This document shows, piece by piece, positions 9,515 through 34,254 of a DNA stretch of 36,419 nt. The notes under the pieces are model-generated. The model did no database searches and was not told the origin of the DNA. It was given only the letters and a program-made list of their open reading frames with translations. The stretch's first letter is position 1; every line of letters begins with the position of its first letter. Source of the stretch: Herbinix sp. (GTDB lineage: Bacteria > Bacillota > Clostridia > Lachnospirales > Lachnospiraceae); assembly GCA_029239235.1 (NCBI GenBank), contig JAQZBD010000017.1, positions 1-36,419 on the forward strand. Direction: 5' to 3'. The position numbers and the translations under genes are program-made.

Positions 9515-10108
9515 ATGGGTAAGATATTTATTGTCATGGGTAAAAGCTCAACAGGGAAAGATACCATATATAAAAAGTTGATGGAGTGTGAGGAGCTAAA
9601 CCTAAAAACAGCAATTATGTATACAACAAGGCCGATCCGAAAGTCGGAGGAAGATGGGGTAGAATATTATTTTGTGAATGAGGAAACGTTAATAGAGCTG
9701 CAAAAACAGAATAAGATTATTGAGCACCGCGCTTATCAAACAATCCATGGTATATGGCACTATTTTACCGTCAATGACGGGCAGATTAATCTGGGGGAAG
9801 CAGATTACTTAATGATAGGAACCCTGGAAACCTATGAACAAATCCGCGAATATTTCGGACAGGATAAGGTGGTTCCGCTTTATATTGAGGTGGAGGATGG
9901 TACCCGTTTAGCGCGAGCTCTAAAAAGGGAGCAAAAACAGGAGCATCCGAAATACGCAGAGATGTGCAGGCGGTATTTGGCAGATGAAGAAGACTTCTCG
10001 GAGGAAAATCTGAAAAAGGTTGGGATTAAAAAGCGATATAATAATTTTGATATCAACAACTGTCTATCGGAGGTAATACACGACATCAAAAATTATACTG
10101 TAATGTAG
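9515..10108 (+). CDS. Guanylate kinase-like nucleotide kinase in the tmk position
   Basis: A 197-residue P-loop kinase of the guanylate kinase family. Guanylate kinase features are clear: the [21 protein letters not shown]-binding lid, IIEH with the base-contacting glutamate, and HGIWHYF. The P-loop GKSSTGKDT (residues 9-17) is atypical: the residue after the lysine is Asp instead of Ser/Thr. AAGGGAG precedes the ATG. In B. subtilis the equivalent slot between yaaO and yaaR is occupied by thymidylate kinase (tmk) and darA. Whether it phosphorylates GMP, dTMP or something else is open, and a second canonical gmk is expected elsewhere in such genomes. Confidence 0.78.
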
Positions 10109-10119
10109 TGAGATTATAT

Positions 10120-10218
10120 GATATAATGTTGACAGACATGATATCAGCGCCGAACGCAGAGAGTGCGCATATTGGCTCGAAGTGTCATATCAGGGCGAGT
10201 TTTCCCGATATAATGATG
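10120..10218 (+). repeat. Structured interspersed repeat, copy A
   Basis: An element of about 99 bp flanked by direct repeats of GATATAATG (10120 and 10207). It can fold into four hairpins: GATATAATGT/ACATGATATC (10120-10129, 10136-10145); GCGC/GCGC (10147-10150, 10165-10168); a weak GGCTC-GAA-GTGTC (10174-10186); and ATATC-A-GGG/CCC-GATAT (10187-10211). The core AGCGCCGAA...GAGTGCGCAT and CGAAGTG is shared with copy B at 32292-32394. It ends 37 bp before yaaR. It could be a small mobile repeat or a leader RNA; the TATAAT at its right end could also supply a -10. Confidence 0.65.
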
Positions 10219-10254
10219 TTAGATATTAATGTTGCAGCCAGGTGGAGGATAGCT

Positions 10255-10695
10255 ATGGAAATTAAGGTGAATCAATTACAGCAACTGAATCAGGTTGAGC
10301 GAAAAGCACCGGTGCCAGAGGCTGATGGTTCGTTTAAATTTACACTAGTTTCCCATATAGAGGAGCGGGAGCTTCAAGCCAGAATCAATTTTATGCTGGA
10401 AGAGATCTCAGCTCATGGTAAGAAGATTGCAAAGCACATGGATATCAAGGATATGAAGCATTATCGTGAGCTTATTCGGGAATTTATGAATGAGATCGTT
10501 AATCGCTCCCATAAGTTCTTCCGCGAGAATTTTCTTGATAAACGTGGCAGACATAGAGTATACACAATGATTAAGCTAATTGATAAGAATTTAGATGATT
10601 TGGCAGCAGAGCTAATTAAGGAAGAGAAGGATCATCTCGCGATTTTGGGAAAAATCGATGAGATAAGGGGACTGCTCCTGGACATTTTTTCATAA
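10255..10695 (+). CDS. yaaR: YaaR family protein (DUF327)
   Basis: A 146-residue soluble helical protein, the same length as B. subtilis YaaR (from memory). The conserved C-terminal stretch [18 protein letters not shown] and [18 protein letters not shown] identify DUF327. I start at the ATG at 10255, 6 nt after GGAGG (10244-10248); longer in-frame readings extend through the structured repeat and are unlikely to be protein. It sits directly before holB as in Bacillus. No function is established. Confidence 0.87.
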
Positions 10696-17810: not shown

Positions 17811-17981
17811 TCGCGGTAAGCGACATGGTCGCAGTGAGGCGGCTTTGGTCTCTGTTAGACATGGTTGCAGTGAGGCGGCTTTGGCTGCTGTAAGGTGACA
17901 TGACCGCAGGGAAGTGGCTTTGGCCACAGTGAGGCGATATATTCGCAGTAAGATTGCATAGCCGCAAGAAGCGGCAGAAGG
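17811..17981 (+). repeat. Tandem mini-hairpin repeat ladder in the fucI leader
   Basis: Nine degenerate units of 16-20 bp start at 17811, 17829, 17849, 17865, 17885, 17904, 17924, 17943 and 17962; the best is TCGCAGTGAGGCGGCTTTGG. Units alternate two endings, (G)ACATGG and GGCTTTGG, giving a period of about 36-39 bp. Each unit can pair within itself (CCGC-AAGAA-GCGG) or with its neighbour (GCGAC-ATG-GTCGC, GCGGC-TTTG-GCTGC, GTGGC-TTTG-GCCAC). The ladder ends in the fucI ribosome site. A TATAAT without a -35 at 17766-17771 could start the transcript, making this the 5' leader. Confidence 0.75.
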
Positions 17982-32202: not shown

Positions 32203-32291
32203 AGAGTTGGATTTTATAATAGTTTCTGATACATTTCTCATAACAAGCAATCAGTGGCATTTCCTATGTTGAAATGAGGGACTGGCTGTTG

Positions 32292-32394
32292 TATAATATC
32301 GACAGATATTATACCAGCGCCGAAGCGAAGCGGAGTGCGCATCCTTGGCACGAAGTGCCATAGCATGTGTTTTTTACATGCTATAATATCGACA
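32292..32394 (+). repeat. Structured interspersed repeat, copy B
   Basis: An element of about 103 bp flanked by exact direct repeats of TATAATATCGACA (32292 and 32382). Hairpins: TATAATATC/GATATTATA (32292-32300, 32305-32313, perfect), GCGC...GCGC with an inner CCG/CGG (32317-32340), TGGCAC-GAA-GTGCCA (32346-32360, perfect) and ATAGCATGT/ACATGCTAT (32360-32368, 32376-32384, perfect). The core AGCGCCGAA...GGAGTGCGCAT is shared with copy A (10120-10218). The outer helices differ in sequence between copies but stay paired. It ends 25 bp before tatD. Between 32203 and 32291 I see nothing else. Confidence 0.68.
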
Positions 32395-32418
32395 AAGAAG
32401 GAAGTTAGAGGTTATTTT

Positions 32419-33186
32419 ATGATATTTGAAACCCATGCTCATTATGAAGATGAGGCATTTGATATAGACCGGGAAGAATTGCTGGATAGTTTTTTAAAAA
32501 ATGGAATTAATCATGTAGTTAATGTGGGTTCTGAGGTCGGAACAATTGATAAGATATTGGCCTTGGCCGAACAATATCCCTTTGTTTATGCCGCTGTTGG
32601 GATTCATCCCAGCGGTACCGCGGAGCTGAATGAAGAGACCTTTGCTTGGCTAAAAGAGAAAGCAAAGCATGAAAAGAACCTAGCGATTGGTGAGATTGGT
32701 CTTGATTATTATTGGGATACCCCGGACAGAGCGATTCAAAAGAAGTGGTTTGAGCGGCAGATTGAGTTAGCGCGGGAATTAAATTTCCCAATGATCATTC
32801 ATAGCAGAGACGCGGCAAATGATACCTATTCTATGTTAAAAGCGGCAAAGGCAGAGGAGATTGGGGCGATTATTCATTGCTTTGGTTATGGAGTAGAACA
32901 GGCAAGACAGTATCTGGATATGGATTTTTACCTTGGAATCGGCGGTGTCGTAACCTTTACAAATGGTAAAAAGCTAAAGGAAGTAGTGGAATATGCACCG
33001 CTTGAGAAACTAGTTTTAGAAACAGACAGCCCTTATCTTTCACCGGTGCCTAACCGCGGAAAACGAAATAATTCATTTAATTTAACCTATGTGGCTCAGG
33101 AGATAGCTCGGATTAAACAGATGGATTACGAGACAGTACTTCGGGTTACAGAGGAAAATGCTAAGAGGTTTTACCGCTTGCCCTAG
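32419..33186 (+). CDS. tatD: TatD-family metal-dependent deoxyribonuclease
   Basis: A TIM-barrel metal-dependent hydrolase of 255 residues. Metal ligands are visible as ETHAHY (HxH), IGEIGLDYYW, MIIHSRDA, IIHCFGYG and ETDSPYLSP. GAGG lies 8 nt upstream of the ATG at 32419; a longer in-frame reading runs back into the structured repeat and is unlikely. It is followed by rsmA as in B. subtilis, though the intervening yabE and rnmV are absent. It acts in DNA repair or degradation. Confidence 0.92.
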   Translation: MIFETHAHYEDEAFDIDREELLDSFLKNGINHVVNVGSEVGTIDKILALAEQYPFVYAAVGIHPSGTAELNEETFAWLKEKAKHEKNLAIGEIGLDYYWDTPDRAIQKKWFERQIELARELNFPMIIHSRDAANDTYSMLKAAKAEEIGAIIHCFGYGVEQARQYLDMDFYLGIGGVVTFTNGKKLKEVVEYAPLEKLVLETDSPYLSPVPNRGKRNNSFNLTYVAQEIARIKQMDYETVLRVTEENAKRFYRLP

Positions 33187-34211: not shown

Positions 34212-34254
34212 AAAGAAAAGATAAAAGAAAAGATAAAAGAAGAGATAAAAGAAG
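34212..34254 (+). repeat. 12-bp purine tandem repeat
   Basis: Three copies of AAAGAAAAGATA, the last with one change, start at 34212, 34224 and 34236, followed by a partial fourth. They lie just before the terminator of rsmA. Confidence 0.8.

Follow-up and report, generated by a model that had tools for sequence, protein, structure and literature searches.

Extragenic hairpin repeats that occur in arrays are familiar from the REP/BIME sequences that go with RAYT enzymes, where the REP sequences carry a GTAG foot. BOX elements of Streptococcus pneumoniae are described, in the part of the report used here, as small, modular, hairpin-forming, and dispersed repeats with tandem inner modules; they are judged to be parasitic, and boxA and boxC can raise the expression of the next gene (PMC3049150). 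The Correia/NEMIS, RUP, and ERIC elements appear, in the sections of a second report drawn on here, as short mobile repeats whose RNA folds stably and whose ends have inverted repeats and TA, Correia having putative promoters in addition (PMC2229807). For IS608 (IS200/IS605), the corresponding portion of a third report gives subterminal hairpins and insertion 3′ of a fixed tetranucleotide that is kept at the left end, the target being recognized through pairing with a guide inside the element (PMC5934647). Neither a promoter -10 target nor direct-repeat edges are described for BOX, RUP, Correia, or ERIC in those parts of the two reports that cover them (PMC3049150, PMC2229807). Moreover, by the terms used, titles and abstract openings in the open-licence literature yielded no such repeat in Lachnospiraceae and no bacterial repeat targeted to the -10 box. 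Among the literature matches to three 11-base strings is a description of gut bacteria, with one occurrence (PMC10213047).

Two copies of a small element are present in the window, i.e., the whole stretch of 36,419 nucleotides from Herbinix sp. that was analyzed. We consider it very likely that this element is a non-autonomous, four-hairpin interspersed repeat that inserts at extended -10 boxes and has TATAAT at both of its edges. Like BOX, it is small, modular, hairpin-forming, and dispersed; as far as the cited part of the BOX report goes, it is set apart, by reading, in its layout, i.e., the whole unit rather than an inner module is in tandem, the target is a -10 box, and the edges are promoter-like. 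With Correia/NEMIS, RUP, and ERIC, as depicted in the source sections above, it shares being short, folded, and dispersed, whereas its outer ends are direct (TATAAT..TATAAT) and its target is a promoter box, not TA. The subterminal hairpins and the left-end target recall the published outline of IS608, and TATAAT can pair with the ATTATA arm of hairpin 1; unlike in that outline, both edges consist of one and the same hexamer, the target is TATAAT, and the Y1 survey linked no enzyme to the element. The likeness to REP/BIME lies in the extragenic hairpin repeats in arrays, but unlike REP/BIME with RAYT the element does not co-occur with Y1 genes.

The two window copies and the wider family

The original prediction had placed a structured repeat pair at 10120-10218 and 32292-32394, with a shared core, TATAAT at either end, and four hairpins. 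Both copies were found at these places by the covariance model (copy A at 10119-10214 and copy B at 32289-32387) and also as a direct-repeat family (D10) in the window, and all of the parts are present in both (Table 1). The arms of hairpin 2 are GCGC/GCGC and the loop of hairpin 3 is GAA in copies A and B. By reading of both ends, the left end is TATAATRTC inward and the right end is ATTATACCATG inward, which is a direct repeat; terminal inverted repeats, as in MITEs, are not seen. GTG-opened reading frames that continue in frame into yaaR and tatD cover a large part of the two elements (10108-10695 and 32335-33186), probably by chance. The window also holds short tandem repeats at 17822-17932 (36 nt) and 34212-34253 (12 nt).

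Table 1. Parts of copies A and B and their neighbors; positions are those of the window.
Feature	Position	Strand	Basis
Left extended -10 (TATGA-TATAAT), yaaR-side promoter, copy A; end of unique flank	10117..10127	+	sequence
Copy A hairpin 1, palindrome GATATAATGTT-GACA-GACATGATATC	10120..10145	+	
Copy A GC-rich core/hairpin 2 (AGCGCC...GTGCGCAT)	10146..10170	+	
Copy A hairpin 3 (GGCTCGAAGTGTC)	10174..10186	+	
Copy A hairpin 4 (ATATCAGGG...CCCGATAT)	10187..10211	+	
Copy A right -10 (TATAAT), 40 bp upstream of yaaR	10209..10214	+	
yaaR (DUF327), gene downstream of copy A	10255..10695	+	
-35 hexamer TTGAAA, exactly 17 bp from copy B left TATAAT, outside element	32269..32274	+	sequence; spacing statistics, 93 loci
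Copy B left -10 (TATAAT)	32292..32297	+	
Copy B hairpin 1 (GTATAATATC-GACA-GATATTATAC)	32291..32314	+	
Copy B GC-rich core/hairpin 2	32316..32342	+	
Copy B hairpin 3 (GGCACGAAGTGCC)	32347..32359	+	
Copy B hairpin 4 (ATAGCATGT...ACATGCTAT)	32360..32384	+	
Copy B right -10 and start-region repeat (TATAATATCGACA; identical 13 bases at left end)	32382..32394	+	
tatD, gene downstream of copy B	32419..33186	+	

Further copies were obtained by pattern and BLAST searches in the own genome (4.97 Mb, 345 contigs), and a covariance model (R1) was built from 13 own-genome copies. R1 has 29 matches there at E up to 10, 21 of them with E<0.01; the matches include a tandem pair with an 88-bp step. Among 397 sampled genomes of the same family, R1 matches (E up to 0.01) were obtained in 38 and matches to a broader model, R2 (E up to 0.001), in 44, the own genome included in both; because the wide searches score only some ten candidates in each genome, the copy numbers are minimum values. 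Of 391 genomes sampled across the class, the own genome alone matched, and the repeat therefore looks confined to Lachnospiraceae at that search sensitivity. The outcomes that would have refuted the original prediction did not occur, which speaks for a genuine structured family: additional copies exist, their stems covary, and the sites are not random. A phage or plasmid origin was also considered and rejected: in viral contigs, two exact versions of the hairpin 1 sequence were matched 0 times and once, and the tatD copy sequence gave no match in plasmids.

In each unit (~75-120 bp), hairpin 1 is palindromic and contains TATAAT, hairpin 2 is GC-rich, hairpin 3 is small, and hairpin 4 reaches the second TATAAT. 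The sequence of the element varies between genomes while this plan is kept. Tandem head-to-tail arrays of up to five units were seen, and the same TATAAT box stands at both edges and at the array junctions. The inner parts are 85% alike within a genome (median, 151 pairs) and 52% between genomes, whereas left flanks within a genome are 50% alike (computed on 90 of the 93 filtered loci described below). Since the inner parts are alike, the flanks unlike, and element-free sites exist (see below), a dispersed mobile repeat is the best reading. The start-region sequences of the first and last repeat of one locus agree in 25 of 36 cases, compared with 33 of 109 between loci of one genome; this sequence agreement points to local duplication or conversion besides dispersal.

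Several other observations concern the form and surroundings of the repeat. At L026 and L032 (G000 C22 and C82), the element has a sub-form in which one more hairpin (TTGYCTG..GCAGRCAA) separates hairpin 1 from the core. Lone palindromes in the own genome (C22, C134, C140, C162, and C238) look like decayed copies. Some matches lie within ~200 bases of contig ends (G019 C12, C16, C20, C28, C40, and C41; G000 C20), as if assemblies break in longer arrays. In genome G087, a second repeat (..CAGCAGGAAAACAAGCG..GTCAACGACAGACTGTAAGTCTGGAGTTG.., whole or in part) is present beside several element copies (L131, L134, L135, and L136).

Folding and covariation

Folding of the RNA compared with shuffled sequence gave z -5.91 for copy B and z -0.43 for copy A. 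Copy A alone thus does not fold far better than chance, and the wider family is needed to settle the claim of a conserved structure. One unit from each of 27 genomes was folded (28 loci were named, one of them outside the filtered set, and all had been found by the structure model); z was below -2.6 in every case, with a median of -5.87.

Compensating base changes in the stems, which had been noted from the two window copies, are borne out by the family. In the 13 own-genome copies, both partners of a pair have changed in 14 cells, compared with 4.4 after shuffling. Among 52 aligned matches from many genomes, both-side changes occur in 24 of 29 pairs, with 165 double-change cells vs 37.5 in shuffled and at most 29 in slid controls, in an alignment that was fitted to the structure model and so favors structure. 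In hairpin 1, the six TATAAT pairs together have a single double change in these matches, while the pairs on either side of TATAAT are double-changed in 19 and 14 sequences. As the TATAAT pairs are fixed and the neighboring pairs swap, hairpin 1 is under pairing constraint and its hexamer under sequence constraint too, the fixity of TATAAT being partly built in, because the search model rewards TATAAT and the locus filter admitted TANMAT only.

Position at promoters and element-free sites

The position of the element between two copies of a promoter -10 box had been missed in the original prediction. It was examined in a filtered set of loci. A first filter kept 18 loci and was replaced, and a looser one retained 92, among which reverse-strand noise was visible. 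The final filter kept 93 and dropped 53, mostly opposite-strand or inner readings of the same element; real loci lost in this way include L122, L127, L136, L142, L164, L173, and L206, and the set of 93 still holds a few decayed, reverse-strand, or doubled readings (e.g., L066 +, L128 -, and L123 twice).

In the unique DNA to the left of these 93 loci, matches to TTGACA are highest at precisely 17 bp before the left TATAAT, with a mean of 2.54 (1.12-1.96 at other spacings). Thirteen loci have, 16-18 bp away, a -35 that matches in at least 5/6 positions, vs 0-3 in nine control windows; for at least 4/6 it is 30 left flanks vs 6-18 in controls. The looser set of 92 loci again peaks at 17 bp (2.45), with at least 5/6 at 15-19 bp in 13 vs 0-6 in six control windows. 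That only 30 of 93 flanks reach 4/6 nevertheless counts against insertion at -10 boxes, as does the poor -35 of copy A (2/6 by reading), which has TATGA-TATAAT all the same. The bases before the left box are T-R-T-G-N: T, R, T, and G at -5 to -2 are found in 64, 90, 85, and 86 of the 93 loci, the count of G at -2 being raised by the final filter, which excluded flanks with TTA, CTA, or TAA at their end and a number of those with TTG or TATG; the looser set gives 61, 89, 86, and 74 of 92. In Gram-positive promoters, TRTGN before TATAAT constitutes the extended -10. The motif usually starts with C (CATGN) where array units join and at right ends, which indicates that at least the first base of the left TRTGN motif belongs to the flank. 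To the right of the element, a codirectional gene starts within 260 nt at 74 of the 93 loci (median 66 nt), and 19 are without a clear downstream gene by the rule used; on the left, a gene start pointing away is found at 33. The downstream genes include uvrB, mraY, parA, pyrE, and lepA (some names assigned by eye).

Fifteen loci were compared with the orthologous places in relatives, and these 15 places were then searched with R2. Presence/absence polymorphism was found at orthologous sites (L128/L229, L087/L238, L064/L242, and L069/L227). One comparison alone among the 15 pairs is exact to the base (L128/L229): genome G340 has two tandem units, ..CTTTTATGA(TATAATGTC..two units..CATGATATAAT)AAGTTTTATCAG, and G015 has a single TATAAT, ..CTTCTATGT-TATAAT-AAGTTTTATCAG, with flanks that are continuous on both sides. 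TATAAT thus stands at both edges of the element and once in the element-free site, where a target site duplication is not distinguishable from the element's own end. A second comparison (L087/L238) gives the same picture, there with the right flank alone well matched.

In G254, a genome of the same genus that as a whole has no R1 or R2 match, the element is absent at 8 of 8 places located (L227, L230, L233, L236, L239, L242, L244, and L246). At uvrB (L069/L227), TTGATT-17-TATACT without the element corresponds to TTGCTT-17-TATAAT with it, and at mraY (L065/L246) the -35, the 17-bp spacing, and the -10 are likewise kept with and without the element. For L068/L230, L060/L236, and L057/L239 the relative is without the element, and divergence in the gap prevents the junction from being located; for L058/L233 and L063/L244 there is a -10-like box (TATACT), by eye only. 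Two other relatives also hold the element (L235 and L226, partners L125 and L127), and a third holds a decayed one by eye (L232, partner L129). Not every copy fits insertion at a -10 box: the element at L206 lies in a terminator loop, and its counterpart in G342 (L231) is without a -10. In the parA pair (L124/L205), the relative without the full element keeps a lone palindrome (a weak match, E 0.0021); either elements are also lost when repeats recombine or the palindrome predates the full element, and because of this lone palindrome some element-free sites may be remnants.

The yaaR locus of copy A has been followed in more relatives. G254 (L242) has a single TATGATATAAT before yaaR at the same place as copy A, none of the 80 kept yaaR loci of named genomes carries the element, and an extended -10-like box is visible by eye in the yaaR gap of L255, L258, L265, L266, and L269; by parsimony, the element-free state is thus the ancestral one here. 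The nearest yaaR relative (L254; 95% YaaR identity) is closely alike as far as TTATATGATATAAT and diverges beyond it, with a second GGTATAAT shortly after the first, and its gap may contain a remnant of the element. The original remark that copy A lies where darA has been lost is unconnected with the element, as element-free relatives have the same junction, in which yaaR follows a gene that looks by eye like one for guanylate kinase. Other, unrelated hairpin repeats (e.g., ..CGAAGTTTACGAGC.. and ..AGTTCACGAGCAGCGCTTATGTACG..) seem to occupy the yaaR gap of L256, L258, L260, and L263, and the one at L258 begins just 3′ of the -10 box; a second promoter-associated repeat family may exist.

Possible mechanism, alternatives, and implications

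The dispersed copies with unrelated flanks, the element-free orthologous sites, and the covarying stems agree with one of the two options raised originally, a hairpin mobile repeat. We suggest that it moves by insertion rather than spreading by recombination. Insertion would occur at the TRTGN-TATAAT of ordinary promoters (the σA -10), with the element pointing in the direction of transcription. The left TATAAT would keep the host -35 17 bp away, and the right TATAAT, with TG one base before it, would come to lie a few tens of bases from the gene. The old -35/-10 pair would in this way be moved one unit (~75-120 bp) upstream while a -10 stays beside the gene. Because a -10 remains next to the gene, insertion might be nearly harmless and the neighboring gene would probably keep its switch; both boxes are predicted to fire. 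Being a -10 box too, the right edge could in turn receive another copy or take part in unequal recombination, and either event would give head-to-tail arrays.

With respect to the chemistry, a single-stranded route seems the most likely, though the case for it is weak. The ATTATA arm of the element might pair with the TATAAT strand, by analogy with guide and target in IS608, and the melted promoter bubble perhaps supplies this strand unpaired. Tentatively, then, the σA -10 could be the target captured as single-stranded TATAAT through the ATTATA arm, RNA polymerase marking the sites and a -10 being left on both sides. Apart from the -35 counts and L206, several points weigh against insertion at -10 boxes: no enzyme was found among the Y1 and Y2 types examined, there is a single base-exact site, some element-free sites may be remnants, the fixed TATAAT is partly built in, and at some loci (19 and 33 of 93, respectively) a clear downstream gene is missing or a gene on the left points away.

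The same features bear on the alternatives. A REP/BIME-type or IS200/IS605-derived repeat moved by a host Y1 (RAYT/TnpA) enzyme would have hairpin ends and tandem arrays, its left-edge TATAAT would be as in target-retaining single-strand insertion, and Y1 genes are present in the own genome. This explanation is nonetheless unlikely. In a transposase survey of 53 genomes, i.e., the 38 with R1 matches and 15 of those without, 17 of the 38 element-bearing genomes and 9 of the 15 others have Y1 genes, and several element-rich genomes (G247, G087, G161, G371, G223, G241, and G333) have no Y1 gene. Moreover, among the 40 neighborhoods fetched as a subset of the listed matches (30 Y1 and 10 Y2), the element lies within ~1.5 kb of 0 of 30 Y1 loci; no link to a Y1/RAYT mobilizer could be made at the level of genomes or loci. 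An IS91/ISCR-type Y2 (HUH) mobilizer was rejected as well, with Y2 genes in 6 of 38 genomes with the element and 2 of 15 without, and 0 of the 10 fetched loci with the element within ~1.5 kb.

Next in plausibility, and in our view improbable, is a site-specific recombination cassette, in which a small circle would integrate by crossover at TATAAT through a tyrosine recombinase or Xer-like enzyme and build arrays resembling those of integron cassettes. It would account for the recurrence of one box at the two edges and at array junctions and for a palindrome with a short spacer, but the spacer varies, as do some of the arm positions, without loss of pairing.

The other original option, a leader RNA family, fared worse. 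That the element acts in cis as a leader RNA for the gene downstream, be it as attenuator, sensor, or stability element, is very unlikely, even though the stems covary and 74 of 93 copies lie just upstream of a codirectional gene. The 64 downstream proteins scanned (of 74; 10 were left out by eye as short or doubtful frames) contain 114 Pfam families (E up to 1e-5), none of which occurs in more than two proteins, and conservation upstream of orthologous or functionally related genes was not found. The element is missing from all eight G254 places and from all 80 named yaaR loci, its sequences are alike within a genome and different between genomes, copies occur in tandem, and Rfam gave 0 matches at the gathering score for the window and 8 element loci. 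On gene content, lack of orthologous conservation, and Rfam, a leader RNA or riboswitch was rejected. Finally, that the repeat is not mobile and arose by local duplication of a -10 region, grown by slippage and homogenized by gene conversion, is scarcely credible, since the agreement of start regions within loci is offset by a complex inner part that is common to dispersed loci with unrelated flanks and wholly absent at orthologous sites.

If the repeat does insert at -10 boxes, the family targets the promoter and supplies an extra -10 box, which would be a way of living inside the promoters of important genes. This raises the question of which enzyme recognizes TATAAT. The element could mislead promoter and operon prediction, and through doubled -10 boxes and arrays it would be a source of promoter variation for Lachnospiraceae, which are common gut bacteria.
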